A DNA stretch of 64,000 nt from Strobilurus pachycystidiatus. Lineage: Eukaryota > Basidiomycota > Agaricomycetes > Agaricales > Physalacriaceae. The stretch's first letter is position 1; each line of letters starts with the position of its first letter. A program made the position numbers and the translations under genes. Positions 17,923-39,908 of this stretch are shown piece after piece. A model generated the notes under the pieces. It did no database searches. It was not told where the DNA came from and saw only the letters and a program-made list of their open reading frames with translations. Location: NCBI GenBank assembly GCA_019915135.1, contig JAHLMK010000030.1, positions 62,001 through 126,000 on the forward strand, written 5' to 3'.

Positions 17923-17953
17923 ACACGGTACATATATCCACAAGTCTTTCGTG

Positions 17954-19019
17954 TCACGTCTTTCGCACCTTCTTTGACCGCTGCCCCTCGTCTGGAACCT
18001 CCGATGGGTCAGATCTTAATAAGTCAGTAACAAGCCTCATATCGCGACGATCCTTCTCGAACGCGGCATGGTCGTCTGAGCTGTGATCGGCTGATCTCCT
18101 CCACCCAACGACGTGAAAGGCCCTCCGGCCGCCTTCGTCTTCGTGGCCATAATCGTCATACAGGATATGTTCTGGAATGAGCTGCCCGTGTGTGACGCCT
18201 GTAGCATGCAAGAGCATCAGCCAGCTCTCGAGGTGATAACTGAGTTGGAATAGAGGTCAATTTAAGGTCTTCAAAATATTCTCCAAGCAATGACATACCT
18301 GAGGTACTTGTCAGTATAATCGAGTGCTACGGTTGCTATGTTGAGGGGCGGTTTCGGAATGTACTGCATGAGTAATGCAGATGTCTCCTCATCCGAAAAG
18401 ATTCCAAAGGGAATTGGAGTGACGCAGGGGTACGAGGGAGATACCTCATCGCCGCAGATGGCAAGAAGAGTCTGGTACTCTTCTTGCAGCGATCCCTCAG
18501 GCGAACTTTCCGTGCGGAACTTCGCCACCAACGGGCCCTTTTCCTGATCTGGCTGTCCATCCGCTCCAAGGAAGTAGCAGACGTAGGCATCCCCATGTCG
18601 CATAGGAGCGTGAATCTGAAGATGGACATGACGTGAAGACGATTCACCGGAAGTGATGACTTTCGACCCCATAACTAGTGGAGATAGGACGCGGGAAAGA
18701 GTTCCGCCTTCCACATTTGCGAGGCCCCAGTGTACATACAGCCGACCAACATTATAGAGGTCGTCCCTCAAGTCGAACTGGTCCCTTGCCACTTCCAATG
18801 GATCCAAAGGCTATGACGATGGTCAGTGAGCTGATTATCTAGCTAAACCTGAGTGGGCTGAACGTACTTTGGGCTTCATCTGTGGCGGAAGAGCGTGTCC
18901 TAATTCGATATGGTATGTCAATCGTAGGGGCTTGACTTTGAACTTCGCAGGACTGATTACGTCACGCCCATGTAATGCGGTCCAAGGAAGTGTTCCCAGC
19001 TGAGTATCGTGTCTCCGAG
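17954..19019 (-). pseudogene. 3' part of second kinase-like gene, cut by the KDZ element
   Basis: Encodes the C-terminal half matching 47864-48930 of unit B: PLEVARDQFDLRDDLYNVG, GPLVAKF, then VTHGQLIPEHILYDDYG and a charged tail. The frame is interrupted at 19019 by the element; the missing N-terminal half lies beyond it at 37296-38702. Bases 19013-19019 (ctccgag) are the target duplication. Confidence 0.9.
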
Positions 19020-19098
19020 CAGGCTATACCGTAGTGGAAATGCATTATTCCCTGGCTGTGGCCGTACGGACGGCCATGCATTTCATCCTCTAATTGCC
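19020..19098 (+). repeat. Left terminal inverted repeat of the KDZ element
   Basis: Aligns with the inverse of 37218-37295. In the outer 33 bases 18 positions match without gaps. Further in, GTGGCC, TAC, CATGCA, TTC and CTAAT.GCC recur in the same order in both ends. Confidence 0.8.
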
Positions 19099-19604
19099 TC
19101 CCCAGCGGGCCATAGAAATACCCTTGCGGGACATGCATTGCGCCCCGGCCCTCCTACCGCCGCCCAGCAGCGCACCGCCCGCTCCATCCGCGCATTGCTC
19201 CTCACTGGACGGCGCATTCCCCCCGCCGCCTGGGCTCGGCCAGTTCCATTTCTGGCTTCTGGGCTTTCTGGGAGATCTGGCATCGATCTATCATCTGTCC
19301 CGATACCGATCCGCCTTGAGAAATCGGGTAGGACAGGCACGGACCCTGTCTGTCCCTTCCTGCGGCACTTTTTTCACGGGTTGATAGAATTGTTTTCTTT
19401 CGACCTCCTTCTCAAGCATCTCCGTCGATAGAATTGACTCGCGAAATCTGTGCTAGGTTCTCGCTCAAACTTCATTGTCCGGCTCGACTCTACCAGAAAA
19501 GAAACAATACACATGTATCATACCTCAATTTTTACTCTGCCAAGTTGTCTGTCTGGCGCTCAATTTATGTGATCCAAATAACTTGAGGTATGTCAGTGAC
19601 CACA
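19099..19604. other. Left subterminal region of the KDZ element
   Basis: Non-coding. It includes a GC-rich stretch (about 19135-19260) that shares CCGCTCC-containing blocks with the inverted right end. Confidence 0.45.
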
Positions 19605-19760
19605 GGTGATACATTACTCGTCAAGAACATCTCACATATCATAATCGCATGGCCATGCATCTCACCGTGAGCCATGTAACTTCGGAGGTAATACATTACT
19701 CGCCATGAACTTTTCTCGACAAGTTCGCATGGCCATGCATCTTACCGTGGCGCCATGCAA
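19605..19760 (+). repeat. Two ~80-bp tandem subterminal repeats with a perfect palindrome
   Basis: Two diverged units begin at 19605 and 19687 with gatacattactcg/aatacattactcg. Each contains the 12-bp perfect palindrome GCATGGCCATGC (19647-19658 and 19727-19738), followed by atct.accgtg. The right position and symmetry suggest protein binding sites near the transposon end or upstream of the first cargo gene. Confidence 0.7.
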
Positions 19761-19868
19761 ATCTGGTAATCATGTTGTGAATTAGTAGTCTCCCAGGGTG
19801 GATTGAGTAAGAAATTATCAACAAGTCAGTTCGAACTCAATGGGTACACAGCGAGCGCCGTCGCGAGC

Positions 19869-19877
19869 TATATAAAA
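19869..19877 (+). promoter_or_regulatory. TATA box of KDZ cargo gene 1
   Basis: TATATAAAA lies 42-50 nt upstream of the ATG at 19919. Confidence 0.6.
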
Positions 19878-19918
19878 GGCCGAAACCCACGAAGACCTTA
19901 CTTTACACCAGCCCCGTC

Positions 19919-20414
19919 ATGTCTTCTGTTGATAACACTGGCACGCCGAAGCGATTCTTCACCGTTTCCCAACTTTCCGGTCCGAAGGACCGCTCTGTCG
20001 ATATAACGAGCACCCCGAGACAGTTCTTCACCTTCTCCCAACTTTCTGCTCCCAACAATCCCGCGGTCGCAAAAGCGATGCAATCGTTCCGTGACGAAAT
20101 CAAGCTCTCGCAACAGAAAAAGGAGGCCGAGAGCAACAAGGTGTGTCTTAGAATCACGGAGTTACTGAGAATACTAATCAGCTACTGCATGTAGCTAAAG
20201 CTCACCGGCGGCGACTCTCTCGTTACTCCGAGTGGAAAGACAGCGTCCAAGGTGTGGAGAGGTTGTCCATTCCTATCATTTGCGGATGGCTGACTCTATC
20301 GTTCAGAAAAAGATGTCTTTTTGTGTGGAGGTTCCGCGTCTCTCTAGCGAAGAAAAGAAACTCTATAGGCATCATAGCTGTGTTGAGATGTTGGGTGGTA
20401 CACCGTCGGAGTAG
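19919..20414 (+). CDS. KDZ cargo gene 1: small protein, unknown function
   Basis: Three exons join cleanly (introns at about 20141-20193 and 20251-20305) to about 130 residues. The first part holds two copies of a short repeat (TPKRFFTVSQLSGP and TPRQFFTFSQLSAP). A charged helix follows (AMQSFRDEIKLSQQKKEAE), then a short C-terminal part ending LGGTPSE. A strong TATA box and tandem repeats precede it. I do not recognise the family. The clean splicing and promoter argue that it is a real gene. It is the first gene inside the left end. Confidence 0.6.
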
Positions 20415-20491
20415 TAGACAATGTTGTATTCCAGAGTCTCAAATTTACGCATTACTTCCAACATACCGGGCAACACAACGTAACCAACTCT

Positions 20492-20808
20492 CGCCATTCG
20501 ATTGCTCTCCTCCAGCAGAGCTACAATGGGTGGGGGCAAGGGCGCCATTGGAGGGCGACGGCATCTTCAGCCATTGAATGGCGTCGTCATTCGATTGCTC
20601 CGCGCCAGCAGATCTACGATGGCGGCGCCATCGGCGCCATTAGATGGCGACAGCAGCTCCAGCCATAGACATAGACTCACTTGAATGCTGCTCTCGCCAT
20701 CTAATTGCGCCTATGATTGGCGCAACACACTTTGTCGTTCCATTGCTCCGCCCCATGACCATGGCACAGTATGTCCACTTGGTGCGTGCCTTCTCGCCAT
20801 CTAATTGC
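20492..20808. repeat. Cluster of about seven quasi-palindromic CATYNRATG motifs
   Basis: Copies include cgccattcgattgc (20492-20505), agccattgaatggcg (20569), gtcattcgattgc (20586), gcgccattagatggcg (20634-20649), cgccatctaattgcg (20695) and cgccatctaattgc (20795). Part of the cluster lies in a roughly 92-bp direct duplication (cattcgattgctc...cagcag...ctac at 20496 and 20588). It sits between the convergent 3' ends of cargo genes 1 and 2. Confidence 0.7.
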
Positions 20809-21115
20809 TTGTCCATCTTCCCTTTGCCCTTTCCAGTCTATATCCCGGGGGAAATATAAATATTTTCGACAATAGGACACAGTAACTAGCGAAACGGTAA
20901 CTACAACATAGATCGCCAGACGAGGAGGTAACAGACAGATCGACAGCTTGAAATAACAAGAGAGAAAGATAACAAGAAGTGAGACACGGACAAGGCGAAA
21001 CATGCGAACAAGAAAGCATCAAAACATCATGACCACGGTCAAGGGTATACAGCAAGGAGACGCGGACACCTTACTTGCAAATCAAACCCCACGAAAACTC
21101 GAAGACTCCGTCCTT
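20809..21115. other. Intergenic, no gene seen
   Basis: About 300 bases between the motif cluster and the 3' end of cargo gene 2. No gene supported. Confidence 0.5.
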
Positions 21116-24100
21116 CTACGCATGCTGCTCATCAGCTAGCATTCCCTCAAGACATGCTTGAAAATCTATCACCGTCGCCCGCCAGGTCGAGACCTCTTCG
21201 CCGGTGACACCCCACCAATATAATCCGAGAAGGAAAGTCACCAAGCCGTTCTCCCCACCACGTCGCAAAGGCCGCAGCAGATGCGGCTCGTACATCGGTT
21301 CAGGCAAGGGTTTACCGGCCAATCGACGTCGTGCAGGTGGTTGTATTCCGTCCCACCATCCAAGTAGCGCGTTGGCGTATTTCTTGACGGATTTTCCTGA
21401 TATCGGGGTCTTGGAAAAGTCGCGCTCTTTTAGCCAGCCGACGAGCTCCGTCGGGCGAAGGGTGCTGACGGCGAGCCGACGCTAAGGTGGGTGGTCTTAT
21501 TAATGTCTTCCTGACAATGAACATGTAACGAGTAAAACATACCTTTTCCTTGGGATCCTCCAAAAAGATTGCCTTCTCCCAGTGAGCATAACGCTGCACT
21601 GTACGGTCCCAGAGATCTGCGTCGGCTCCCATCGCCATAGAGCGCATGTTGTTGACCAGGTCGTCCATCCAGGGCGGAACGTTTTCCTTGGTCATCGCCG
21701 AGACCGTCTGAGGTTCGCGCATCGTCGTCTTGCGAACCCGACTAGGACGCGATGATGAGACTTCGGGATCCGGACGGCTCTTCTTTGCTGGCTGCTCCTC
21801 ATTGTCCTCTGGCGGGTCCCTCATTCTCTTGGCGCCGACAGCTTTGCCTGAAGACGGTGCCTGCGGGACAGCCTTCGCCAACTCCACACTTCCAGAACTC
21901 TCTTTCGCCTTCGCCTTCGCCTTCACCTTCGCCTTCACCTTCGCCTTCGCCTTCGCCTTCGCCTTCGTCTTCACCTTCGCCTTCACCGTTTCCACTCCCA
22001 CGTCGCGATCGCTGTCCTCCTCGGAAACATCCCCTACATTCTCTACATCGCCCGGCCCTTCCTTCGCACCGTTATCCCCTTCACCACCGCCAGCCCCACC
22101 GTCACCACTTCCCGACGCAAACACCGTGGAAGCACCATTATCCCCTTCACCACCGCCAGCCCCACCGTCACCACTTCCCGATGCAAACACCGTGGAATGC
22201 GGCAGTGCCACGGGCCGGAGGTGGGTGGGGAGATCGTTTGAGGCAGCCATCATGTCCTGCGGGGATAAGCTCGCCAAGAACGTTTCCAGGAGGATGTCTA
22301 TCGAGGGGAGAGACGGAGACATGTTTGTCATGGAGGGATTGGCGCCCTGCGCCATTTGATGACTATCAGACGGTTGCGGAACGGGCGCGCTGTGCGCCAT
22401 CAGATGACCATCAAGAGGGAGGGAGTGGCGTAGATCTTGCGCCATCTGATTAACGCCCGTGGTGGGCATCTGATTTCCATTAGACCAGAAGGGCGGCAAT
22501 GTGGTCGTGTCAGGGGGAATGAATGAAGATGCGCCGGCCGCTCCTTGTTGACCGTCAAGAGGAAAAGTGAAGTCCCCCGGCGCAAAGTTGCCAACATCCA
22601 AGCCAAGATTCCAGTTGAAGTCAAACGATCCATTTGGGGCTGCCGTGGATGCCAGAGGGAATTCGATCCCCTCTAAGCCAAAGGTAAAATCGTCACCGAT
22701 AGCACTCTGAGGCAGGACGAAATCCGATGGAGTGGATGAGATCCCGCTCGGAATTGGAGACAGGGACGATGACGGCGGGGAAGACTGGACAATTAGGGTA
22801 GGTGGTGGGGCCAGCTGAATCGTCGATTGATGAGGAGGGAGCGGCAACGGAACGGGTTCCTCGGGCTGCACGTCGGGAATTGTGTCGTCCTCGTCCTCAT
22901 CGTCCTCACTTCCGCCCATTGTCGGGTACGTATCCGGCCGAAGGAGGACAGGCGGAATGACTACCTGCGCGATCGTAGAAGAAGTGGGAGCGGGCACCGC
23001 TAACTGAACGGGGGTGTTTGCTATGGACGACGCGGGAGTAATGACTCGTATCTGAGGGGGAACAATAGATGGGGGAACGGTGGGTCCATGCGCCGAAGAC
23101 GCCGATGGTACAGCGATATCTAAACCGTCCTCTGTCTCGTACATAGCGACTTTGGGGAGGGATGCTGGCACCGGCGTATCTGAGACCGCGATCACATCCT
23201 CGGGATCCTGGCTGGATTCCTTGACACGCGTGTCACGGCGCCTGCACTCAGCAGGAGCTAGCGGCCAAATATTGTCAACACTCAGTCACAATGAATGAGA
23301 AAGTACTTACGGAAAACGGTACGACCGTACGCGCGAAAGGGCTCTTCCATTTGCGTTGCGAAATCCTCCAGAGCCTCGTCGAATGTTTGGCCAATCAGGT
23401 TGGAGGGACCGAATTGAAGTCTATGCGACGACAGCATTGGTTTGGGGGCTCAAAGAAGGAAAGACGGCGAGGACTCACTTTTCGACCTGGATTGCGCCCA
23501 AATTATTCGGTCCGACAGACAAAAGAAAGTACGTATGACCCGTCCCTCGCGCCAGCTCGGCAAAGAATCGATTCAAGTGAACGGGCCGCGCCTGAAGATT
23601 TCTAGTATCCGGTCAGGCCCAATCGCGAATGGAACAGGAAAATGAACTTACTCGGCGTACTCTGCAGCAGTAAGGACCAATTCTTCCTGGTTCCTTTTCG
23701 CCTCCTTGTCCTTCTTCTTCGTCTCAGCTTTCTCCACCTTCGCCTCTGCCGCCTCGTCAATGTATACCTGTCGCTGCTCGTCGGTCAAAGCGAGCCAGGC
23801 TGCATCTGTCGCCTCATTGATGATGACCAAGTGATGGCGTAAATGAACGTCGTCTGGATCAGGAACGGGGATGTCGGCAAGTAATTCGGGGTTGTTTCCG
23901 ACGTCCGATTCCGTGCAAGGTGGCTGACTTGTTGCCGCCCGTGCCGTGTTCAGTGATGCGAGCCGAATGATGAGAATGCCTCGTAAGAGCTCCGAAGCGC
24001 GCGTTGCCTCCACCATTGGGGAGATGACGGTCGCGTACTCCTTCTTGGAGAAGAGTTCCTTCGGCTTGTGGCACCGCGAAGCAGAGCCGCCGAAGTCGAA

Positions 24101-24516
24101 AGAATCCTTCGTCCGCTGTAGCGGTCGCTTGAGCCGATCGTTATTCTGGTACCAGACGCGGAGTTTCTGATAAGATCTCATCAGCATGTCAATGTCAAAA
24201 ATAGAAAACACATGCGCACGCGTCTGATTTTTCCCAAGGAGGTTTCCGGATGCTTGGGATCTTTCTCCTTGATGAAGGAGGTGAACGATGCGTCGATGGG
24301 AAGGTGAAGCTGGCTGCAAAGCGATGCCGTGGAGTAACTGGTGAAAAAAGTCGCTTCCATCTTTGGCCAAAACGCCGACAAGGCTTTTCGTGAACGCGCA
24401 TCGTAGTAGTCGGGAAGTAGATTGAGCAGAGTTTGGCGCTGACCGTCGACTGTCCAGTGCCGGCCGTCTTGCCTCGCAGGCTCATCCGGTGCGGGGGTCT
24501 TTTTCTTTCGGGGCAT
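21116..24516 (-). CDS. KDZ cargo gene 2: large Agaricomycete-specific protein, unknown function
   Basis: Six exons chain in frame from MPRKKKTPAPDEP (24516) to the stop at 21116, giving about 1000 residues. Order: an N-terminal domain (LLNLLPDYYDARSRKALSAF, then KLRVWYQNNDRLKRP) followed by a Lys/Glu-rich helix; a middle domain (RFFAELARGTGHTYFLLSVG, FGPSNLIGQTFDEALEDF); a long Pro/Ser-rich disordered part; a tandem 22-residue repeat (STVFASGSGDGGAGGGEGD); a basic KAKAKVKAK tract; and a C-terminal domain (PPWMDDLVNNMRSMAMG, LRPTELVGWLKERDF, ANALLGWWDGIQPPARR). This architecture recurs in many Agaricomycete proteins of unknown function. The basic tract suggests nuclear location. It is divergent from cargo gene 3 with a 199-bp shared promoter. 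Real gene likely; function unknown. Confidence 0.7.
21906..21986. repeat. GCCTTC hexanucleotide repeat in cargo gene 2
   Basis: Imperfect hexanucleotide array that encodes the alternating Lys-Ala/Lys-Val tract on the minus strand. Confidence 0.85.
22066..22197. repeat. 66-bp tandem duplication in cargo gene 2
   Basis: Two nearly identical 66-bp units start at 22066 and 22132 and encode the Gly-rich 22-residue repeat twice, in frame. Confidence 0.9.
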
Positions 24517-24715
24517 GAGACGGTAGCGAAAAAGCTTAATTCATTGCGGTCATTCGATTGCCCAAGGCTCGGCATTTTGCGGGGTCCTGTACTGTACAAC
24601 TCAGCCACAACTTTTCAAGCTGAGCTTGAAATATCTGGTATATATGCTGGACATCTTCCTTCGACGTACTTTGCCTCCTCCCACTTACTCGCATTTTCCC
24701 AGCACCCTCTCTACG
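24517..24715. promoter_or_regulatory. Shared divergent promoter of cargo genes 2 and 3
   Basis: Only 199 bp separate the two start codons. It contains one motif copy (gtcattcgattgcc, 24549-24562), close to the start of gene 2. Confidence 0.5.
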
Positions 24716-25799
24716 ATGTCTGCGCCTCTCACTCGTGATGTTCTGGACGCGATCGTAAACCGGCTCCTGGAACTTAACCTGGTCCCGGCGTGCGAGCAAG
24801 GTACGACATTTAACCTTTCAGTTACCCGTTCATGTCGCTTATCTCCGTTTTAGTTGTAGGTTTGTGCGGGTCCTGGTTATGTCATGAGCCTTTCTAACCT
24901 GGACTTAGGCGGTCTTCCCGGTCCCGGCACCGCGCCCTCCCCCGACTCCGACGACTGGCGTAAGTTATTCTGTTTTTGTCACACTTTCTCCCATACTGAT
25001 CAACTCACCCAGCGTCGTCGGAGTCCAATTTTTCCCTCACGGACAACGGCCTGGCCGATGGAAACAACGGCTTGGGTAAGATTCGGTTCATTTTTGTTGT
25101 TTTGATCTGACTGTCATCACATAGTGTGTGCCCGGTGTGCTCACGATCTCTCGAGCGTGTCGGGAATCTTTGCCATTCCCTTGGCAGCCATTGCCGCCGA
25201 GGCTGCTCACGGCATCGCGCCGGCGCCCATGGCTTCAGCTGGCGGAATCCCCGCGCCTGCTCCCGCCATTGTGCCCGCTCCCGCTCCTGTTGTTCCGGCT
25301 CCCGCTGCCGGTGTGGCGTTGGCCGCCGCCGCCGCTGCCGCTGTTGCGCCCGCTCCCGCTCCAGTTCTTGCCGCGGCTCCAGCGCCGGCTCCGGCTCCCA
25401 TCCCTGCGCCCTCTCCGCCGGCGGCTGCTCCTGTTCCCGCTGCTCCCCACGACTCCAGTGGACCCGCCGGCCCAATTCCCAGCAGTGCGCGCGCTTTCAT
25501 GAGTGCCGCCACGGTCCAGGCGATTGAGTCTCTGGACTTGGACACCGTCCCCAGCCACTCCACCACGGGCCCATGGTACTATATCACGGTTGGTACTGCG
25601 CTGGGAATTCACCGTGATTGGTAAGTGTTCTGTTGCTGATCCCTCGTGTGGTTGACTGACTCTTCCCCAAAGGGCTTTTGTTTCATTCCACGCGACCGGT
25701 ATTCCCCGCGCTGTTTACCGTCGGGAGGAGACGTGGCTGGAAGCTCGTACCGCCTTCATCAATGCCCGCAACGCGGGTGTGTGCCGCTTGGTGGTTTAA
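24716..25799 (+). CDS. KDZ cargo gene 3: Ala/Pro-rich protein with C-terminal RNase H1-N/viroplasmin-like domain
   Basis: Exons join from MSAPLTRDVLDAIVNRLLE to the stop at 25797-25799; total about 270 residues. The middle is a low-complexity Ala/Pro stretch. The C-terminal block reads GPWYYITVGTALGIHRDW, then AFVSFHATGIPRAVYRREE and TWLEARTAFINARNAG, with an intron after HRDW. The pattern of a WYY...G...GIY..W start, a G...AVY centre and an alternating helix ending in a Gly matches the RNase H1 N-terminal (RNA/DNA hybrid-binding) domain, also called viroplasmin-like. No RNase H catalytic domain follows. Assignment is by pattern only. The first intron is about 130 nt if taken as a single intron, longer than its neighbours. 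Confidence 0.65.
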
Positions 25800-26309
25800 A
25801 TTGTCATTGGACTTTTTTGGACGTTCCCTTTTTGTATCTATCATCATCTTCCCTCATCTATCGCCTCCTTTGTTATGTTGTAGCATTCAACTGCTGTTGT
25901 CTTTGTCTCCTTGCTCTGATCTTTGCTCCTTGAAGTAGTATAAAATTGAAGTAGTATAAAAATTGTGTACAGACTGAAAATGTATCGTAGTGTAGGCTCT
26001 ACTTTATTCAATACCCTGTTTGTCCACAGCCATAAACTCGTTTGTCTTCCGTGCCAACAAACAGCCATCGGCCATCCAATGGCCGGAATACGAGTGCAGC
26101 CATCCAATGGCCACAGTCAATCTTCCGTGCCAACAATCAGCAATCGGCCATCCAATGGCCGGATTACAAATGCAGCCATCCAATGGACAATCAATGACGT
26201 CTCGTGAGAGGTTTCTTGTCAGTTGGATCTCTAAAGTCGGAGGCATCGAACAAGAGACGGTAACAGCACGTATGTGATGATGCAGACAACGTTACGCGGA
26301 CGATCATAG
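25800..26309. other. Intergenic with four CCATCCAATGG motifs
   Basis: Convergent 3' ends of cargo genes 3 and 4. Motif copies gccatccaatggcc at about 26071, 26099, 26147 and a variant at 26175. The surrounding words (cttccgtgccaacaa) are also duplicated, so the cluster arose by local tandem duplication of about 76 bp. Confidence 0.7.
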
Positions 26310-26940
26310 CTAGTGATACCCCTCGCCCGAACGCCTCAGTTCTTTCGCACTCTTCCTCTGTCCGGCGTACCCAAACTTTGCGGCGTTAGCATTGGCGTGG
26401 AGGCGATCTCGCACACGAGTCTCTGAGTCTTCTATATGGAGTTGCCGTTCGCGCGCCGTGTAGTCCGCCGGGTTCTTCAGAGAGGCAATGCGTCCGCGGA
26501 AAGGAGGTGGGTTCGTGGTACAGACATCATAATTCCTCTCCCAGCGTTCCATTAGGTCTCTGACAATGTCCCATCAATGAGCAAGTTCGGGATGCAGTCA
26601 ATGCATGACTCACGACTGGCGCCGTTCCTGACTCTTGCGCAACAACGGCCAGCGATTTCTCCGTCGATATGCTTCTTCTTGGACACGTCTGCGCGCCAGC
26701 AAAACATCCCGCTCGTCTTTGGGAAGGAGCTTCTCCGCCGCTCGCTCAGCACGACGGCGAAGCTTCGCCTTTTCACGGCGTTCCTCGGCATTCCTGGAAG
26801 TCGTCAGGTGGGAGTTGCAGTGATGGTGCATTAGGGCACCTTTGCTCATAAGCGCGTCTAGAGTATCGGGCACGAAGCTTTTTCTCCTCTTCCGGGTCCG
26901 TCGTGTCAGTGGGAACTTGGGTGGGTCCAGTCGTGCTCAT
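26310..26940 (-). CDS. KDZ cargo gene 4: highly basic helical protein
   Basis: Three exons join in frame from MSTTGPTQVPTDTTDPEEE to GEGYH, about 175 residues. The first half is an almost continuous Arg/Glu/Ala helix (RRAYEQRNAEERREKAKLRR), rich enough in Arg to bind nucleic acid, but it lacks a clear leucine zipper. The second half (WERNYDVCTTNPPPFRGRIA) is not recognised. The clean introns (gtgccc...ccag, gtgagt...tcag) support a real gene. Function unknown; a DNA- or RNA-binding role is inference from charge only. Confidence 0.55.
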
Positions 26941-27887
26941 GGTTGAGGGTAGAGAATCGTAACCGGCATGCGTGCCGGTGACACCTAACCCTAGCTACGT
27001 AGCCCGTTCACGAGTGAGGCTGGGCCGAACATCCGGACGATGAAATTTGCGTAGTCAGTTCACGAGATAGAAATAATCCGATTTACCATTGGCTCAACCT
27101 GGCGACTCCTTCGCACATATGAGCACGCAACTATGTGACAGCTATTGATACAAGCCTACCGCCATTATTTCCACATTTTTAAAGCCCTTTGGAAGTGCTA
27201 GGCATCGCTTGAAATAAGTGTGCTTCAAAACGGTCAAAAGGCATTCAACTTGTCCATAGCAAATCCTATCGAGACCTATGTTGTTGTCAGGTCGGTGCGA
27301 GAATTTACTTGGGCTCACTCGGATAGACAATATATTGCATAAGGAGGAGTTTCAGTCTTAAATTTCACAGTGGAGTGACACTGCGCCGTGTGTTTCTATG
27401 TCATTCATCATCTCCTTCGAGATCATGGTCTAGCAGCACGACAGATCGAATGAGGCCTCGAACAGCGTCTAGAACCATAGCGTGGCTTGATGATCATGAC
27501 GCTGTCGATCAGACACTGTAGTGACCTGGCTCATGTCGCTTGTAACCCAGATGCTATACCCATATCACACAGCATTCTTCCTCGGTCAACATAGACATGT
27601 CACACCCAGACTTTACAATGCAGACTATCCATCAAAATATAGACTTGAATGACACAGCTCGCCAAATCACCCGATGTGCTCAGGGCGCGAGATAGATAGT
27701 TGGTTGGGAACGCCACCTTTGAGAACGGCATTGATCGATCGTAGGCGGCACGGCACTCCCCGGTCGGAGTGTCCCACAACTGTACAGCTCTCACTCGCAA
27801 ACCCAACCCAACAAAGAAATCCCAGCGTCCGCCTACAACTTACGACACCATCGACATCCTGAAAATATCCGTTTACGACATACACCG
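26941..27887. other. Intergenic; one short WD40-like minus-strand fragment
   Basis: Divergent promoter region between cargo genes 4 and 5. On the minus strand at about 27700-27806 the words RAVQLWDTPTGECRAAYD look like one WD40 blade, with no extension either side. No gene is supported. Confidence 0.4.
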
Positions 27888-29390: not shown

Positions 29391-29771
29391 TTGAAGTCGA
29401 CGTCCCAATCATCTTCTTGAATGGCAGTAGATTTAACTATTTTCTTTTTCTTTCTTCCTCTCGTCACTTTCTGTTGATCTAAGTTCGCATTTATTGGTCA
29501 TTTATCAGAGTAAAAGCACACAATGTGTATGATACCACTTCTGTATTCTGTTCTGTACTATTTAACATTCCAATTGCTGCCAAGTCTGTATTTACATCGG
29601 GGCGTCATTAGATGGCCGCGCCATCAGATGTCGGATTTCAACACGCCAAGTCTGTATCTACATCGGGGTGTCATTAGATGGCCGCGCCATCAGATGTCGG
29701 ATTTCGGCTTTTCAAGCTCCCGGTGGCTGTGATCCAGCTGTGATCGAACCACCTTTTGACTGCTCCCACCA
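29391..29771. other. Intergenic with a 66-bp tandem repeat carrying motif pairs
   Basis: Two 66-bp units (29581-29646 and 29647-29706) each contain gtcattagatggcc directly followed by gccatcagatgtc, i.e. two motif copies back to back. This is the promoter region of cargo gene 6. Confidence 0.75.
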
Positions 29772-30321
29772 ATGCCCGCTATGTCGCAAAGCTCTCTCAG
29801 GGAACGCATGGTTCGTCTGTCTCTCAAACAGCCCGCGCACATGCTGATTATTGCGTAGATTCGCATTCGCAGTGGTCTCAAGCACAGTCGAAAGCATTGG
29901 TTACGGGAAGCCCAGGAGCTGAAGGTGAGTCAAACTTGCCAAGACTTACATGTTTGTTAACACGGTCGTCAATCTCATAGGGGCCCAGGTCCAGACGCGC
30001 CCAACTACTGCTCCGTCGAGCTGATGAGATTGAGCTCTCACTGGCGCTCCTAGAGGACGAGTCAGCCAAATTGCGCCTGCGAAAGCATCTGTTGAAGGTG
30101 GCGCATGACCTCGAAATGGAAGTAAGTTTGAGTACCTACTCCGTACTCCAGCCACTGATTCCCGTTTCGCGTAGGCTCTGAACGATCGACGTGCCAGGGC
30201 GCTGGTTTACGCCAACCGGATCCGACGTGAGGAGGAGGAGATGGCACAGGATTCCTCTGTTTGCACGGAAGAAGTGGAAGTAGCTCGACTCATACACGGT
30301 ATTCTGACATCGGAACAGTAA
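29772..30321 (+). CDS. KDZ cargo gene 6: small coiled-coil protein
   Basis: Four exons, each ending at a good splice site, join to about 125 residues: MPAMSQSSLRERM, IRIRSGLKHSRKHWLREAQE, RRAQLLLRRADEIELSLALL, then ALNDRRARALVYANRIRREE and a short C-terminus. Almost the whole protein is predicted by eye to be helical, with heptad-like Leu spacing and many Arg/Glu pairs. It may oligomerise or partner another cargo protein; that is inference. No family recognised. Confidence 0.55.
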
Positions 30322-30497
30322 ATACAAATAGACACTTTGCCTGGTTTGGTCGTTGAATATGCCTGTGACTATCGACAGCTGGGAATACTTTTGACAGTCG
30401 CGAACACTTGTGACCGTCACCTTTATTTATGAAAGCACGTTCCAATCTGGTTGGTGGTTCCACTCCACCGACATTGTTCTGACTCCATTCTTTTGCC

Positions 30498-31370
30498 ATG
30501 TCCTACGGTCACCTCTGTCTTGACGCCAACTGGCGTCTCAAAGACGTGAAAGGCGCAGCTTTAGGTATGTGGCTGTCTCGTAAGGTCGTGTTTCTCCTAA
30601 GGCATTCAACCAGATTCTGAGGGGATATCCGCCTCCGACATTGCACCTGTCACGCCGCCTTTCCCATCTGTTCCCGCCCACGAACATTCCTACGAGGACA
30701 CGGCGTCTCTGGAATCGGTTTCCGACGACCCCGACGACGACATGCCGTCCTTGGAATCGGTTTCCGACGACTCCGATGACGGGACCCTGGGCGTCGATGA
30801 CCTGCTCGATGCGGCGGCAATGTCTCGTATGTTACAAAAGATTATCGAAGGTGATTGACTGGCTCTTAAATTTTTTGTCCCATACTGACTTGACTTAGAG
30901 GACAGAAAAGTTCGTCTGACTCATGGTGAGGCCCCCGAGCGCATCTGGCACGAACTTGCGTCTGTCACCCAGCCTGCCTCTACTGGTTCTGAGGATGCCA
31001 ATGGTAGCGGCGAAGTCGATATGCCGCTCGAGTATCATGTACGTAGATCTCCCATCCTCGAGATGGCGCTTATAGGTCTCTATCACAGTACGCGCTTTGG
31101 AAGGAACTCCGGGAATGTGACCGATCGATTTCGCGCTTGCAGGAGCGCCGCGCGGAGCTTGCGAGGGAATTTACAACCGAACGAATGGCTTCTGAGTGAG
31201 TGCATAGCATACTGTGGTTGGGCTCAATTGTGTAACCCTTCCTGTGTAGGTCGAAACAGTTCCAGCAGGTCATCATTGACCTCCAGTTAAATATGTCTCA
31301 ATCCGGAGGGGTGTATGACGCTGGTTGCGATTTTTTGCAGAAGGTGCAGCTTAGCCAGGTAGAACTTTAG
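30498..31370 (+). CDS. KDZ cargo gene 7: acidic protein with helical C-terminus
   Basis: Five exons join in frame from MSYGHLCLDANWRLKDV to the stop at 31368-31370, about 215 residues. The acidic middle contains a doubled SLESVSDD(P/S)DD unit. Next comes a block APERIWHELASVT, then a coiled-coil-like C-terminal part (YALWKELRECDRSISRLQER, FQQVIIDLQLNMSQ). It lies only about 175 nt behind cargo gene 6 on the same strand, and both have small helical products. Function unknown. Confidence 0.58.
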
Positions 31371-31670
31371 CCTCTGATGGTAGTTATTTTGAAGACGTTC
31401 CTCCCGTCTCCATCGCATGTGAATCATATCAGCGGAGATTTCTCCCATTTCACATTGAGTCTCGAAGATCCCATCGCAGGCAGGGATTCGGTCTCGAAGC
31501 CAGGTATTCGACAGCTCGACGTAGATGTCCGCGAAGTCGTTCAAATGCACTCGACATTCATCACGCTCTCGTGGGGAAGCCCACTTTGTGACCAATGGGT
31601 CAAAATCGAAGCCGGTGTCTATCGCTGGGAATTGGGCATGAAATCGAACATTGCATCGTAGATTAGATGC
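31287..31670 (-). CDS. Possible minus-strand exon overlapping the end of cargo gene 7
   Basis: An open frame on the minus strand has a protein-like composition (WASPRERDECRVHLNDFADI, then MIHMRWRREERLQNNYHQRL) and would overlap the 3' end of cargo gene 7 by about 80 bp. It has no in-frame ATG, and no upstream exon was found. It may be the last exon of an unseen gene, a decayed gene or chance. Confidence 0.22.
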   Translation of the reverse strand, partial: ASNLRCNVRFHAQFPAIDTGFDFDPLVTKWASPRERDECRVHLNDFADIYVELSNTWLRDRIPACDGIFETQCEMGEISADMIHMRWRREERLQNNYHQRLKFYLAKLHLLQKIATSVIHPSGLRHI

Positions 31671-32144
31671 ATATATACGGCAATCGAATCACCCAGGATG
31701 TCCTCTTCCTTCGCAATAGAATGAATGACGGGAAGTCTAGTGCGTATATTGGAGTTCCGTGTCGCAATCAAATTACCTGGAGCGTGTAGGTGGCAATCGA
31801 ATGACGAGATGTGATTCACGGCTGAGCAGACATACTATCTGTAATTGAATGACCTGAGGTGGATGTCCCGGTCGAAACGGCAACCGTGAAAATAGATCTG
31901 ATACTAGAGGCAACCGTGACACCACACCCAGAAACTCTTTCGGCTCCTCGGACAAAAAGGAGAACGACAGCAGAGAAAGAAGTGCTAATGCGAATGTACA
32001 TTGGCAGGAGAGGCTTTTGTCCAGACAGATCGTCGCCGTTGAAAGAAGGTGCAAACCCTGGCTTGGAAGTATGGGAGCACTAGTGAGTTCTGGGGAGAAA
32101 TGCCCGAGCTATCAAGGAGGGTCAGATCTACTAGTGCCTGGAGA
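31671..32144. other. Intergenic with CAATCGAATGAC-type motif variants
   Basis: Upstream region of the transposase. Variants of the element motif occur at about 31679, 31791 (ggcaatcgaatgacg) and 31841 (gtaattgaatgacc). No gene supported. Confidence 0.5.
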
Positions 32145-32150
32145 TATAAA
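32145..32150 (+). promoter_or_regulatory. TATA box of the KDZ transposase gene
   Basis: TATAAA (within gagatataaaagcagg) lies 81-86 nt upstream of the ATG at 32231. Confidence 0.6.
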
Positions 32151-32230
32151 AGCAGGAGATACCACGGCAAAGACGCACTCAAATTTTCGCTACTACCTTC
32201 CCGGAATTCTCCCTCGTCGTACCTTCCCTG

Positions 32231-35200
32231 ATGCGAGCGCAACAGCGCAAATACGAAAAAGCACGCCGCGATGTCGCTGAGCACCCGACCGACATCGATA
32301 CCAGCGTCACCTGGCGGGCAAGTGAACGAACCGGACATTTGCGTCCCAGGGTGAATTGCACGGTCCGCGATCCGATGAATGTCTCTGAGTCATCCGGCTT
32401 CCTACATAACGGCGATCAGGCATACGTCATGTCCGCACCCTTTGTCGGGGACTCCCAAGTATTCTGCGAACGTCACACCGGCGACGAGGATGACAATGGT
32501 ATACCTCCCGACGCGAGTCTCCAGGATGCCCATGAGCAGATTGCTCGTGCTCGTTATCCCTCCGTGAGCGAACATTTTACTGACGTCCCTGTACTCGTAC
32601 TCATTTTGCGCGCAGGACGACCCGATGAAGAAATGGCGCGCACGAGCATCAGAGTATCTTGCCGAACTTTTATGTCTGGAGGCCCCCGCGCCACCGCCGC
32701 TCACCTGCCCGGGTTACTTCGGCGATCCTTGCCGTCAGGGTTCGGCTGGCGTCTATCGTTGCCTTACTTGTCACGATCAACGACTGTATTGCAAAAGTTG
32801 CTTCATCAAATCCCACTTGGCGCTTTTTCTGCATCGCGTAGAGGTGTGTGTCTTAAGCTATCTGGCAGCTTGTCCTTTGGACTGAAAGATTTCGAAGCAG
32901 TGGACTGGGGAATTCTTCACGAATATCACTTTGGCAGAACTCGGGTTATACATTCAACTCGGACACCCTCCAGGAGAAGACTGTCCTACGCCTCGTTTAG
33001 CCAACAGCAAGCGCTTTGTCATCATTGATGTTGACTTCGTTCACATTGTCCATCTCAGGTACAAGCTGTGTTCTTTTCAGAGTTTCTGACTTTGACACAC
33101 GAGACTGCTTCTCAGATATTGTGCCTGCATCAAGAACGCTGGTACGACCTTCGACGTGCAGCTTCTTCGCGAGCGGCTGTATCCTGGAACGACCACAGAT
33201 CCGGAAACTAGCGCCACATTCCGCGCGTTGGAACACTTCCAGATGCTTACGTTCATGTCCAAGGTACATCCTTGACGACACTATGTCTCCATCGCTGACC
33301 AATGGCACCAGGTATCCGCCTATGAATATTTCTACACCGTGTGCCGTCTCTCGGATAATACAGGAACCCGCATGCCACCAGTACGCTGTCTTCCCTTGCT
33401 TACCGAATGTTTTCTGATGGCACTGTCAGAACCGTTATCAGACTTTTCTTACGATGATTCGCCAGTGGCGCCATCTCAAACTCTGCAAGAGGTTCGGGCG
33501 CGCAAACGAGGACAGTGGCAGGGTCGGGACCAAGAAGGGCGACTTGGTTGTCATTTGTCCGGCATGCCCCCAGCCCGGGGTCAATATGGAATTGTATGTC
33601 GCACTCATAAACGGAGATAAGTGCTAAATGATGTGTTTATCTAGATCTCCATCGGGCCAATCTCCCTATACAGACGCTATGTTCTTGGCGATAGATGCAA
33701 ACTTTCGACTGAAGCGAGCAAATGTTTCCACAGAGGGGCGTGATCCGAGCTTGAACGCTGGATGCGCCTACTTCGTCCATCGTCCCACTTTCAAAAACTA
33801 CGTCTCGGCGTATGAGCTGGCCATACCGGACGAAGATAGTACGTGTAACAAACATGACGCCCTCAAGTTGGCGAGTATGCGAGGAGGAAAGGGAACGGCA
33901 TGCACTGGAGTTGGGGCCGTCGTGTGTAGCCGCCATGACGTCAAACGGGGTTCTGCGGTCGTGAATTTGCGAAAAGGCGAGAAGTCAGTTATCATTACGC
34001 ATATATCCTTGTGACAGGCGGACCTGACAGTTGGCCAGGTACATCTATATGGATTACGCTCTGTTGTCGACTCTCGGTTTGAACACTCCCGACCGCCTCG
34101 TGATTTCCTATGACATAGCGTGTCAATGGAGCAAAAAACTCTGCCAACGTATCCAGCTTTATCCGGCATGGCTCCGCCCTCGACAAATTATGTCGCAGGT
34201 TCTATACCTTGTGCCCAAATTCCATCTCCCGGCCCACATTCCTTGGTGTCAATTTCTCTTCTCTTTCAATTGGACCCCTCTGGTAGGACGAACCGAAGGA
34301 GAGGCGCCTGAGCGTGGGTGGGCTGCCACCAACGGAGCTGCGACGAGCACACGCGAGATGGGCCCTGGGTCGCGCGACGACACCTTGGATGATCATTTTG
34401 GAGATCAGAATTGGAGGAAGGTCTGTCTGATAGGTAAGAGTTTCGCCATTGAATGCCTCCCCGGAAATACATTGGTTATTCCATGGTCATTTGGATGACC
34501 CCTTTTTTCGCCATTGGATGTCTTCCGTGACTTCCGCCATCCCATGTCCTTCTGTTGACTGATATGTCTTTCACAGCGGTTTCCCTTCGCGACAAAATAC
34601 TGGAGGCTATGAAGGAGCGCGAAACCCATGTTGTTGGCTTTCTAGGCTTTGAAGGATCTCTGGGGGAAGACGCACCCACGGCAATGTGGCGAGAGTTGGT
34701 TCTCAAGTGGGAGGCTGATCCTAGGGCGTCGGGCATCATCAATCCCTTTGCGCCCACCTTACGCGGTCTGTTTCTGGACTCACACTCGACCGGATGATTA
34801 CTGAACCTTATCGCTAGAGTTGTCCGACAATACGGTTCGCCTGCGTTTGCAGGAGGAAGATGCCAAGCGCACTGATGATGGAGTCCCTCGCCATTCAGTC
34901 GGACCGGCCGAGTTCATCATTCAGGGCTTGCAGCTTGAGGACCTACAGTACGTCATCGAAATCCAACGGCGATCGCCTTGCTGAAAGAAATCTGTAAGAC
35001 ATCGAACTTGGCGCGATGCGGCCCGACTAAGTCAACACGCCACCGACAATCAGAAGGCTAATCACCAGGAGAAGCTGAATCGTCTGACAAGACGTATCGA
35101 GGCCTGGTACGAAATTCAGGGTGTGTATATGCCTCTTGCGACGATCCTGCGTCATCTCGAGGACATGGACGGCGCCCCCGGTGATGTGCTGGCTCACTCT

Positions 35201-36045
35201 ATGAAACTGCTCCTCCCTTCCTCTGTCCTGAGCATTCAATCTAAAATGGACCAGATTCTCATGAGCATGGAGAAACGTCTCCGTATTGCCCGTGCCGAGG
35301 ACGCTCTTGGTCAACTTCGTGAGCACATTCTCCTTCGATCGTGCATGTATCGCATCAGGGAGCGCGAAATTCGAGGTCAAAAACGCGGGGGTCGAGCGAA
35401 TACGATCCTTTCGCAGGTGGATGACCGTATACGGGAATCTCGAGAGCGTTACACTAGGCATTACATGGCGCTGAGTGCTATGAATCCCTTCATGCTCGAT
35501 CACACGTGGCAAGTGTCTCTCAAGCCTTTGGAGGATAAGGATATTGTTGCGCTGGCCGATACAGACGGATCTGAAGGCCGACGGACCTTACCCTGGATCT
35601 GGCTTTCCAGCGTTCACATTTCGGGAGAGCAAGGAATGCAGGAAGGTCTGTGATTCGCGCTCAAAACTATGTGTATCATATTGATGACTTCTCAGCACTT
35701 CGCATTGAGTGGTGTAAGTCGCGAGCCCGCGCACAGCGTTGGCAGGAGGAGTGTGTCTTGTTGCGCGTGGAAATGAAACGCGTTGAGGCAACTCTGAAGT
35801 CTCAGGCGGATCATTGGGCGGCATTGGGGCGAGGTGACGGTGCTCTGGATTCTCGTCATATTGACGGTTTTACGGCAGGCGCAAAGGCATACGCGATGAG
35901 ACAGGCAGCGATTCGTCGGTCCATGGAGTCCTTTGCGCGGGACACATTTGCGCAGATCCCGGAGGACAAACCGTACATTGTAGAAGACAATGGTACGTCG
36001 GAGGTGATAGATGTTACGCAGGACCTCGACTCCGTAAATAAATGA
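32231..36045 (+). CDS. KDZ-family transposase, full length
   Basis: Mobilises the element. About eleven exons chain in one frame to roughly 1000 residues. The N-terminal part has DDPMKKWRARASEYLAELL and the KDZ-associated Cys/His cluster (CxC2-like: CPGYFGDPC, YRCLTC, YCKSCF, then two His). The RNase H-fold core follows: AIDANFRLKRAN with the first Asp, CSRHDVKRGSAVV, RLVISYDIACQW with the second Asp, LVPKFHLPAHIPWCQ, and GRTEGEAPERGWA with the Glu, then MGPGSRDDTLDDHFGDQNW. The C-terminal part is helical (SLRDKILEAMKERETHV, LTRRIEAWYEIQGVYMPL, ALRIEWCKSRARAQRW). No stop or frame break was found, so activity is possible. The intron at 34434-34576 is much longer than the others and carries motif copies. 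Residue roles follow from the published family; splice sites are inferred. Confidence 0.9.
34434..34576 (+). repeat. 143-nt transposase intron loaded with the element motif
   Basis: The intron starts gtaagag and ends ttcacag. It contains cgccattgaatgcc (34444), ggtcatttggatgacc (34485-34500), cgccattggatgtc (34509) and cgccatcccatgtc (about 34535). The other introns of this gene are about 45-60 nt without the motif. Confidence 0.75.
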
Positions 36046-36093
36046 ATCGATTTGTTCTGTTGTCATTGACATTGTCTTCCCTCTTGCCTTAAA

Positions 36094-36675
36094 GCCATTG
36101 AATTGCGTACCATGTTCAATCGTGTTGCAGACTTTCTGTTTCTGTGCTAGCGGAAGTCATTGAATGGCGCGAAGTTGGTGTCCGCGGAAGCCATTCAATG
36201 GCGCGACGTTTGGTTGCGATCTCATGATCCGTGTAAGGGGACGTATGCGAAGCCATTCAATGGCGCAACGCTTGGTTGCCATCTGATGATCCTTTGTCTG
36301 TGTAAGGGTACGTATGCCGGGAAGAATCAGTACTCACCAGCCGAGGTGGTCTAGCGGGCATTGATGCTTCTGGCATTGCGTCAGACTGGTTTTGATTGCC
36401 TTCTCGCCTCTGCGTATGATGAACAACTCATTTTTTGGTGTCTCGGTTCTCCTAAAAGTCATATAACCACGATGGTATAGCGGTTGCTGTCTCTCTTGGT
36501 TGCCTCGCGGTCTGGGGTGCCTAACATGTCAGTCTTTGATAGACTCGAGTGTCAATGGCGTGCACCGTCACGTTTAGGTGGTAGAAGAAGTCATTGTATG
36601 GCGCGAACATCATTCCCCTTTGTCGGTCACAAAAGCCATACAATGTCGCGCGAACTTGTACGCCATCCAATTGCC
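36094..36675. repeat. Right-side motif cluster of the KDZ element
   Basis: At least seven motif copies: gccattgaattgcg (36094), gtcattgaatggcg (36156), gccattcaatggcg (36190 and 36252), gccatctgatgatcc (36278), gtcattgtatggcg (36591), gccatacaatgtcg (36635) and cgccatccaattgcc (36661). It follows the transposase stop. Confidence 0.75.
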
Positions 36676-37217
36676 CTTTCGCTTGTGGCACACAGCTGTC
36701 TCTTTGCTCGATTGATAACATAATAGATTTTTGATTCTATTTCCGAGCGACTGACTTTTTTTGAAAGACATTCCCGTTTTCTTTCCCGGTTCAAGCGCGT
36801 TCAAACCTGGTGCTTGTATAACGCTGCGACGGGCCGCCACAGGCGTCAAGTTGTTCATGTCACACACCCCAGACAAAGGATTCAACCAACCAAAGACATG
36901 CAGAGATCATCCATGATATGTCGAATATCATTTGAACATGACGCCGGCTCTCTACTGCGATTCCGATTCTACGGTACGCTACGCACGGCCGTGATGTCCT
37001 GCGATCATGATCGAGGACATGGTTCCGATCTCTCCAGGAACCAGATGATCTCATGGTACTACCACCCAAAATGGAACCTTGCGCGCCAACGGTCGGCCAG
37101 AGGCGCTGACAGGCGGATGCGAGCTCGCTGTGGACGATGAGCAGGACCCCAAGCTCACTGTGGAGCGGGCTGCCGCCGCCCTGCCGCAGTTACCACAGGA
37201 AATGCATTGCCACCCCT
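36676..37217. other. Right subterminal region of the KDZ element, no gene seen
   Basis: Non-coding stretch between the motif cluster and the right inverted repeat. Confidence 0.5.
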
Positions 37218-37295
37218 GGCTATTAGCGGGAGAACTGCATGACTTCCCGGTAGGCCACTAGAGGGGGTAATAGATTGCCCACCCATTATCTGGTG
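37218..37295 (-). repeat. Right terminal inverted repeat of the KDZ element
   Basis: Inverse of 19020-19098 (imperfect). Read inward the end starts CACCAGATAATGGG. The flanking ctccgag (37296-37302) is the right target duplication. Confidence 0.8.
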
Positions 37296-38702
37296 CTCCG
37301 AGTCTCAGTACGCGCCAAGACATCATTTGTTGCCATGATAAATTGGCCAGTCTCGATAGCCAGGGGTGCGAATGGGGAGTTCTCAGACGGCGGAAGTGAC
37401 ATGTCAATGGGGTCTGAGACGTATAGTGTCTGAGTCTCTCGTTCGCGGATACAGATAAATTTGACGTCGCCGGTGACGATGTTGATGAATGTAGCGTCGC
37501 TTGAGTCACCAACCGTCCATGCCTGAGGTAACACAAGTTGAGTATGGTGTTGACAGATCACAGACAACAGGTACTGACACGTTGGTAGCAAAACATCGCT
37601 GCATGGAAGACATCATCCGCCATCCCTGACACCCATTCCGGCTGGTGACGAGCAACATTCAATGCCTTGGATGCAGAGAGTAGCTCATGAATGACATGAC
37701 TGTCCCGTCCAGTCGGACGACCAGACACAGTCCTCTTCTCCGTCAAGATGCTTTGGCATTGAATCGGAGACCCGCAATTCCTTCGTTCGACATCGTTCTC
37801 GTCGCAGAAGTGCGAAGTCCACCCCCGCTTGTCAACGACATTGAGAACGGCAATGTCGTTCATCGCATTCACAACTTCATCAGTGGTGTATGGCCTCCCA
37901 ACTTTGAGAAGGACAAAAGGGAGAAATTCGGAATATCCCTGTTCTGTGGCGGCTTTCAGGTCGGCGCGGAGTCCAGTAGTCTCCCCAGTGATCGGAACGG
38001 CACTCTGATCCAGGACGATGTAGCCCTCGCCAGGTGCGTCGCATGCGGGGTCGGTGGACCCTGGTTTCCACCTCAAGAAGCCGGGCCTGTCTAATGAGAC
38101 CACCCCCGGCTGTAAGAGGGCAGAGGCGATAACAGCGGGGATGCATTCGCGAAACTCCAGGGCGGCAACCAAAGCGTCAACGGTGTCAACGGTCCGTCTT
38201 GTGCTCCACAGTTCCCTGTTGCGCTTCCTCTTTCCATGGGAGATATCAGAGTGCTGGGGAATTGGCCAGGAGAAGACATCTCGATTGCCCTCGGCGTCGT
38301 GATATGCCTCGAAAAGTGTCACAAGGCTCTGTGGGAGATTGTCGATGTGTTTGACGTGTTTGAGCTGGTGTCTGTCGTGCATGTGTAAAGCTATGGGCCC
38401 GGGCCGTGGAATGTTAAGACGGTGTCCAACGAGTTCATCCCAAAAGATAGTGGTGTAAAGAAAGGGATCGCAGAGAATTGCATCTTCAACTCGTTTACGA
38501 GTGCATGTGGCGCCGTTGACCGTCACGTTCCGACAGGGGCTGTAAACATCTGGATGGAGGGAGCCCAGTTTGGCTCGGCCATATTTGCATCACCCATCGC
38601 AATCGTGGGGGCCTGCGCAGTGGGAGCAGACACTCTGAGGGGAGCGGGTCGCCACGAGATGGCAGCAGACAACGTGTCCACATCAGGCTGGGACTCTTGC
38701 AT
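37296..38702 (-). pseudogene. 5' part of second kinase-like gene, beyond the KDZ element
   Basis: The start at 38702 (MQESQPDVDTLSAAISW) matches the intact copy at 50322. It continues through TCTRKRVEDA, FWDELVGHRLNIPRPGP and AWTVGDSSDATFINIVTGD, then is cut by the element at ARTETR. A second lesion exists: near 38517-38525 unit A reads ggaacgtgacgg where unit B reads ggaacttcgacgg, a one-base loss that creates a TGA. The copy is therefore dead by two independent events. Confidence 0.88.
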
Positions 38703-39908
38703 GGTCTGTAGACGTTCCGACTGCTGTGGACGTTGAACTGAGATTGACGCTGGGATGGGGGAAAAGACTCACTGAGGGGGAAGAAAAGAGGGAAGGTCTG
38801 GTCTACAGCACTTGTAAATTATGGACCTTTTATATGACATTGTTTGCATTGATCGCCGCATTGGTCAGGAACTTGCCGGATGCGGATGGTCTTTGTGGCG
38901 TCGAGTGTTTCTACGTCTGCGTGAAGCAGCCTCACTTTCTCAGAGAAGAGAACTGGAAAGCATAGACTGATATCGAGACAACGACCTGATCAGAGCAGAT
39001 CGCTGTCGGTGCCAGTGCCCAACCGAAAAGTGCGACTCAGACTCCCCCGGCACCGAAGAGCGCCACTCATCCGTATTCGGAACAAACCATTATAAGAAAA
39101 ATGGGAGCGGATCAAGGGCCAATTACCAGCAAAGGTACACGTTAGAACAAGACAGAACCCTTCCATTATCTATATCAGGTCCTTACAATGTGTGCTTCAT
39201 CGCCATTGTTGTTGCATTGTTGCTACAATTTCAGCTCGCAAAAAGTGGTAGAACAGGATGTCTACGCAAGAGGATTATAATATTCGACTGCAACACAAAA
39301 AAATCGGCTCAAGCGTTTCTTACATTGATCCGTACACGATACAACGATTTAGATCACCAAAATTGTACATAATAATGATCGCATCTCACTCAAGGGCCAA
39401 CGCGATGCAGGTCCGCCTCGCCTCTTCTCATTCCTGTTCCTACGAGCAATCCCCCGCTACTACGCAAACACCGCCTTGCGTTCTCCCTCATTCGTCAACA
39501 CCTTGGGCACGTAGTTGAACGAGCGGACGAGGCTGTGCGAAGAAACTTAGCGTAAGGAACAAAGGAAAAGGAACAGACCAAGCGAAAGTAGATGGAACAT
39601 CGACAATGACATCAACGGCCGATGTAGACACAGATTCAGAGTCAGGACGACTAGAAATGAAAGCATCCAACAACGCACTTGCTCATGCGGTGATGTAGAT
39701 GCTCGCGATCCCAGAGTCCGCTATCACGATTGACCGGTCAAAGTGCGTCAGGCCTTGTTTCCGGGGACTACGAGTGTGTTCGTGAGCATCCGAGCCACGA
39801 TAGTGGCGATAGACCAAGACGTGAAGAAAGAGCTGAAGGACTATAAACACGAACGTCGTACTCACTTTGTGATGCGGATGCACGATATCGCGATCATGCA
39901 TACTTGAC
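38703..39908. other. Right part of unit A, no intact gene
   Basis: Matches 50323-51933 of unit B. The last stretch (39683-39908) corresponds to the 3' exons of the gene intact at 51674-52392 but lacks its 5' half. No other gene supported. Confidence 0.55.

Follow-up and report, generated by a model that had tools for sequence, protein, structure and literature searches.

What is the role of the several cargo genes, and of the short words densely repeated between them, in a large KDZ DNA transposon for which no TET/JBP gene is detected? This question is raised by the 64,000-nt window analysed here, a stretch of the Strobilurus pachycystidiatus genome (G000:C30:62001-126000, contig JAHLMK010000030.1; coordinates without a contig name refer to the window), which contains at 19020-37295 on the + strand a whole Kyakuja-type KDZ transposon of 18,276 bp with 5'-CA..TG-3' ends, hereafter called the C30 element. 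Comparison with its relatives in the assembly of the same host (51.8 Mb, used for all genome searches) shows that this lineage keeps a pair of non-TET genes, AB and C, beside the transposase gene, and that the non-coding DNA is full of a motif private to the individual element. It is this element-private dispersed motif, which the first-pass annotation of the locus had not noted, that is the most unusual feature of the C30 element.

With respect to the motif, the short and quasi-palindromic word GCCATYNRATGGC has, allowing for at most one mismatch, 23 sites in the C30 element as compared to 0.23-0.4 expected, and none in the 45.7 kb of the window that lie outside it. Judged by exon models that were typed by hand and cover 54% of the element, 21 of the 23 sites lie outside exons; they are spread over seven separate places, with varying centre bases and conserved half-sites, and 11 of them reside in three non-coding tandem repeats having units of 66-92 bp. 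By position, the sites are found at 20493-20808 (20493, 20544, 20570, 20636, 20696 and 20796; tandem repeat 20491-20666), at 26071-26187 (26071, 26099, 26147 and 26175; tandem repeat 26045-26186), at 29604-29698 (29604, 29620, 29670 and 29686; tandem repeat 29579-29705), in a 143-nt intron of the transposase gene on the + strand at 34434-34576 (34445 and 34510, next to one GGAAATACAT at 34463), between the transposase gene and the right end at 36094-36674 (36094, 36156, 36190, 36252 and 36662) and, as coding sites, in exon 5 of AB at 22351-22408 (22351 and 22396). GCCATYNRATGGC is lacking from two further tandem repeats in AB, 21904-21984 and 22066-22197, and from one in gene model G, 30692-30781. 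When a two-site form of the pattern (gap 8-38) was searched for on both strands of the genome, all eight matches fell into the C30 element, the reversed control giving one.

The relatives used for comparison come from a genome search with the transposase, which gave at least 115 matches (72 of 336 candidates were scored). Among the matches listed, the best ones outside the window lie on contigs C15, C27, C9 and C18, being 71-79% identical in the main exon, and those at the remaining loci reach at most 47%. In a tree of KDZ exons, built from 16 rows of fetched loci of which two are extra window copies, C30, C15, C27, C9 and C18 form a group with a support of 90/97, which is below the star threshold; in the underlying KDZ-exon alignment the main exon is 72-82% identical between C30 and its relatives. 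Two 3-kb stretches compared between C9 and C18 (C18:627901-630900 and 647701-650700), outer flanks included, agree to 99.97% and 99.77%, and the two loci were therefore counted once; they probably represent allelic haplotigs or arose by a recent duplication. The AB match in C18 holds one TAG, that in C9 none.

The first-pass annotation of this locus had recommended searching the genome with the element termini. Two copies share the C30 ends and have 7-bp target-site duplications (TSDs) of their own, and neither of the findings named there as refuting the element, cargo genes mostly apart from the transposase or the terminal repeats, or copies that end elsewhere, occurred in this genome. The C15 copy (676937-708656, 31,720 bp, TSD ATTGTGA) has CA..TG ends, and its first 16 bases are those of the C30 element. 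Between its cargo genes C and D resides a nested long terminal repeat (LTR) element (686435-702826, 16,392 bp) with 1,669-bp LTRs that are 100% identical; it is a recent insertion, and the C15 core measures about 15.3 kb when it is subtracted. The C6 copy (2687550-2689596, 2,047 bp, TSD GTACTAT) holds both C30 ends, matching them with 74% and 80% identity over some 240-260 bp, and is, as judged from its sequence, a deletion derivative; as such, and with its own TSD, it fixes the same element ends. For C27 and C9 the ends and TSD are unproven, those of C9 having been looked for and not found.

A dense private motif is clear in three of the four elements, namely C30, C15 and C9. The C15 motif GGAAATRCAT (at most one mismatch) has 22 sites in the 15.3-kb core, where 1.7 are expected, and none in the 16.4-kb nested LTR element, and the C9 motif CTCGTTAACACGCCA (at most three mismatches) has 43 sites in the 24.9 kb examined, where 0.7 are expected; tandem repeats containing the element's own motif are found in C30 and C9. 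The GCCATYNRATGGC motif has no site in C15, C27, C9 or C6, and the C9 motif has one in the C15 core, one in C6 and none in the other elements. The C15 motif is found four times in C27, twice in C9 and five times in the 2,047-bp C6 copy, so that the cross-element counts are near background except for C6, which shares the C15 motif. Exact CGTTAACACGCC has 37 matches in the genome, 33 of them at C9/C18, two on C35 and one each on C2 and C7, with five for the reversed control. In a search over all complex 10-mers, in which each sequence was shuffled six times, the top word was counted 19 times in the C30 element (shuffles 9-10), 17 times in C15 (8-9) and 45 times in C9 (10-12). There was no excess in the LTR element (11 versus 10-12) or in two flank stretches (10 versus 8-11 and 10 versus 8-12).

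The C9 motif spans 953295-986969, and the element may be as large as these ca. 33.7 kb; the transposase gene of this element is inverted with respect to AB, and variants of the motif are seen in a 160-bp tandem array at 974578-975490. At C35:135856-136525 the C9 motif is present twice, in inverted orientation and 0.66 kb apart, perhaps as part of a small non-autonomous derivative. In addition, C27:303362-304422 and C9:963989-965105 have two more coding blocks in common (40% over 127 aa and 79% over 29 aa) that were not seen in C30, and accessory cargo may vary by sub-lineage.

As for the genes, six-frame open reading frames of the C30 element were compared with C15, C27 and C9. Blocks of conservation were seen in each of these relatives for the transposase, AB and C, and in C15 alone for D and E; F, G and H have no match in the three. 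In genome-wide searches (E ≤ 0.001), two pieces of AB gave five and seven matches and C gave seven, all confined to C30, C15, C27, C9 and C18, and D and E gave five and six, confined to C30 and C15; in the 51.8-Mb genome the four genes were thus found exclusively in company with this transposase subclade. The co-occurrence of cargo and transposase that had been proposed for checking is seen in this genome for AB, C, D and E. Of the earlier claims on the cargo, all seven gene positions proved plausible as genes; the idea of a coherent alternative cargo set stands, by sequence comparison, for AB and C as the shared core of the lineage and extends to one relative for D and E, F, G and H being private and weakly supported.

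AB (21116-24516, - strand) consists of six exons (24516-24220, 24166-23652, 23601-23479, 23420-23311, 23257-21543 and 21481-21116) coding for 1,041 aa, and its counterparts, of 937 aa in C9 and 972 aa in C15, are likewise single open six-exon genes. A Pfam scan of the C30 protein gave no family at E ≤ 1, and over three members it gave HMG_box (E 0.85) and TcdB_N (E 0.4), in one member each and below cut-off, so that an HMG-box-like stretch is suggested only. The protein has long variable stretches, including a duplicated 22-aa unit in C30, and just 419-487 of its 1,041 aa can be aligned between the elements. Over the alignable blocks AB is 50% identical to C15, 38% to C9 and 42% to C27, the corresponding values for the transposase being 62%, 56% and 54% (966-1,084 aa). 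Gene C (24716-25799, + strand; five exons read by eye) codes for a Pro/Ala-rich protein whose C-terminus resembles the N-terminal domain of RNase H1, with matches below the Pfam cut-off of 21 bits in three of four elements (E 0.0082-0.056).

A possible explanation is that one of the element's own proteins, with AB as the likeliest candidate, is a DNA-binding protein that occupies the private motif densely along the element and would thereby keep the element transcribable or accessible to the transposase, countering host silencing in a sequence-specific manner as the VANC proteins of plant VANDAL elements do. The terminal GGAAATRCAT motif of C30, which is common to C15 and C6, would then serve the transposase and the internal private motif the accessory protein, and AB would change hand in hand with its motif, hence a pair of its own in each relative; a role of C, possibly in binding RNA:DNA hybrids, is a guess. 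That AB binds the motif, and that the element is thereby protected or activated in a VANC-like way, is, by analogy, the reading we tentatively favour, at somewhat less than even chances. The wider proposal that fungal DNA transposons independently evolved such anti-silencing, by an AB-motif pair that co-evolves in each element and replaces the TET/JBP proteins of other Kyakuja elements, is conceivable and has to be held with more doubt.

Several observations weigh against such a VANC-like role of AB. Over the alignable blocks AB is only moderately more diverged than the transposase, several outer exons of which are 34-58% identical, and a DNA-binding domain in AB is unproven, all HMG hints being sub-threshold. 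Three motif-bearing elements are few. C27 is without a clean motif: its best 10-mer (17 versus 9-10 in shuffles) resembles acidic coding repeats and was not counted. Of the flanks, the stretch 37311-55586, which overlaps another flank stretch and holds diverged gene copies, is itself slightly above its shuffles (11 versus 8-9). With respect to the C15 motif, the exact form GGAAATACATKTC is not exclusive, three of its eight genome matches lying in C15 (control 1), C30 holds seven C15-type sites versus 3.5 expected (shuffle maximum 10), and the presence of the motif also in the C15 termini fits a transposase site. Finally, the observed/expected ratio of CpG dinucleotides is undepleted in the C30 element (1.05), its flanks (1.03-1.05), the C15 core (1.01), C27 (1.03) and C9 (1.07), with 0.82-1.09 in 13 other KDZ pieces; these counts, which are uninformative as to a removal of DNA methylation, therefore give no sign of a methylation-driven decay to escape from.

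The main rival holds that the dispersed motifs are binding sites of the transposase, i.e., extended subterminal repeats on which the transposition complex of a large element is assembled, with AB and C as accessory transposition factors. In line with this, the C15 motif is also present at the C15 termini (676953, 708540 and 708595) and in the 2-kb C6 derivative, with five sites in 2,047 bp. However, GCCATYNRATGGC is absent from the C30 termini, its first site being 1.5 kb from the left and its last 0.6 kb from the right end, and these termini bear the C15-type motif instead; its sites also occur in mid-element and in an intron, and transposases that are 72-82% identical in the main KDZ exon (54-62% over all blocks) would need unrelated motifs. 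We consider this explanation rather unlikely, though it has to be taken seriously.

Local tandem duplication followed by drift could also generate a repeated word without any binding protein, AB and C then being ordinary conserved cargo, and in its favour 11 of the 23 sites lie in three tandem repeats. Yet the sites occupy seven separate places and keep their half-sites while the centre bases vary, the pattern recurs in three elements, each with a motif of its own, and neither the nested LTR element nor two of the three flank stretches exceed their shuffles, which makes this a distinctly improbable account. Least probable of all is a promoter or insulator read by a host transcription factor, with cargo that is of use to the host or at some other stage in the life of the element: motif clusters do lie between genes and near gene ends, but a separate host factor would be needed for each relative, and the two-site form of GCCATYNRATGGC is exclusive to the C30 element in this genome, which would be unlikely for a host factor.

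Should AB indeed read the motif, fungi and plants would each have come independently to a sequence-specific evasion of silencing, with transposases that are unrelated, and one and the same transposon group would allow a direct comparison of two counter-strategies, TET demethylases on the one hand and a private pair of protein and motif on the other. The predictions on protein and motif are concrete and cheaply testable. Even otherwise, a multi-gene Kyakuja lineage is documented whose conserved cargo matches no Pfam family over cut-off.

With regard to the element itself, the first-pass annotation had described an 18.3-kb KDZ transposon with exact ends, and this could be confirmed: the 7-bp TSD CTCCGAG is found at 19013-19019 and 37296-37302, enclosing termini of the form 5'-CAGGC...GGTG-3'. 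The left flank (17927-19017) matches a paralogue at 47852-48922 by 78.1% and the right flank (37296-39000) its adjoining part at 48918-50625 by 82.4%; since both matches abut at the CTCCG of the paralogue, the empty site can be read directly, as had been claimed. The imperfect inverted repeats proposed for the termini were likewise recovered in weak form at 19020-19130 (+ strand) and 37185-37295 (- strand), with GGAAATGCAT at 19036 and 37198. Comparing the left with the reverse-complemented right end, the left query starting two bases early, gave over 120 bp a local score of 21.3, and none of 1000 base shuffles went beyond 16.6; all 1000 shuffles were also exceeded over 80 bp, and over 60 bp nine of 1000 reached the observed score. 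The inverted similarity is weak yet real, and far from a clean terminal inverted repeat (TIR).

The transposase gene (32231-36045, + strand), expected between these ends, reads as an open frame once the nine introns located in it are spliced out, one of them that of 143 nt and the others 40-55 nt long; the N-terminal exon(s) and last junctions of the model are approximate. Its product exceeds the cut-offs for KDZ (PF18758, 202.8 bits versus 26.6) and CxC2 (PF18803, 111.7 bits versus 27), and among named proteins those closest to it are from Hymenopellis and Mucidula and are KDZ proteins, too, with 69% identity to a protein of Hymenopellis radicata (Physalacriaceae, Agaricales). KDZ together with CxC2, a link to Kyakuja that is taken from the Pfam description, a 7-bp TSD and CA..TG termini characterise the C30 element, by its ends and transposase, as a variant of the known Kyakuja group rather than as the suggested new type of KDZ element. 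The reported lack of TET/JBP holds: a genome search with PF12851 gave 13 matches, all below cut-off and none on contig C30, although a remote PE-type TET would escape it. These sub-cut-off TET/JBP-like exons lie at 13 places (e.g., C38:96059 and C26:273882), and a listed KDZ match lies no more than 5 kb away from the one at C26:273882. A DUF3435 tyrosine-recombinase captain was not found among the eight C30 gene models scanned.

The other cargo comprises D (26310-26940, - strand), coding for a small basic protein, E (27888-29387, + strand; 3' end uncertain), and the models F (29772-30321, + strand; coiled-coil-like), G (30498-31195, + strand; acidic repeats) and H (19919-20190, + strand), the 3' ends of G and H being uncertain. 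The sole match near H, 27 aa at 20319-20399, is to C9 and lies outside the model. Elsewhere in the window, diverged gene copies that are 75-92% identical lie at 14206-18633, 42005-50446 and 53691-54943, into one of which the C30 element was inserted, and three pieces of this cluster that were scanned gave no Pfam match. At 45137-45709, 35-nt arms that are 91% complementary and 503 nt apart might mark a small element resembling a miniature inverted-repeat transposable element.

Amongst known systems, Starships are giant cargo-bearing fungal transposons with a DUF3435 tyrosine-recombinase captain. The C30 element is likewise a large fungal element with cargo, but it has a KDZ transposase and a 7-bp TSD. 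KDZ elements make up a large part of the DNA transposons of Marasmius oreades, according to the available text of PMC8290104, a genome paper that also supplies TIR motifs for them. KDZ1 of Cryptococcus, another large fungal KDZ element, is described in the accessible part of PMC12810828 as having about 11 kb, 241-bp TIRs, an 8-bp TSD and a CxC1 domain, in contrast to the weak ends, 7-bp TSD and CxC2 domain of C30. The Kyakuja group of Agaricomycotina (Iyer 2014, as cited elsewhere; Kojima 2025, PMC12730594) is characterised, in the available text of the latter, by a 7-bp TSD, CA..TG termini and TET cargo, and two Laccaria families are stated there to lack TIRs. The C30 element resembles this group in its KDZ and CxC2 transposase, TSD and termini, and differs from it by having no detected TET/JBP, by several extra genes and by the internal private motif, as well as, possibly, by its weak inverted terminal similarity; that text makes no mention of such a motif or of cargo other than TET. 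Also among the titles and abstract openings of the listed matches on KDZ/Kyakuja cargo and anti-silencing, there was no description of this cargo or motif.

The precedent for sequence-specific anti-silencing is provided by VANDAL and VANC in Arabidopsis (PMC5735166 and PMC10398659, in their available parts), and a lecture reported in the accessible text of PMC12859917 deals with the co-evolution of VANC and its target. VANDAL transposases are of the MuDR type whereas that of C30 is KDZ, AB has no Pfam model over cut-off and does not even weakly match DUF1985 or DUF287, and anti-silencing in C30 is a proposal by analogy, with no homology detected. According to the available text of PMC5735166, the binding motif of VANC21, YAGTATTAY, lies in introns as well as in intergenic and terminal non-coding DNA, it is found in tandem repeats and differs among related elements, and VANC is variable while the transposase is much more conserved. 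In the C30 element, too, a short private motif that differs between relatives lies between genes and in introns, with many of its sites in tandem repeats, and is accompanied by an accessory protein that is less conserved than the transposase and has variable, partly repeated stretches.

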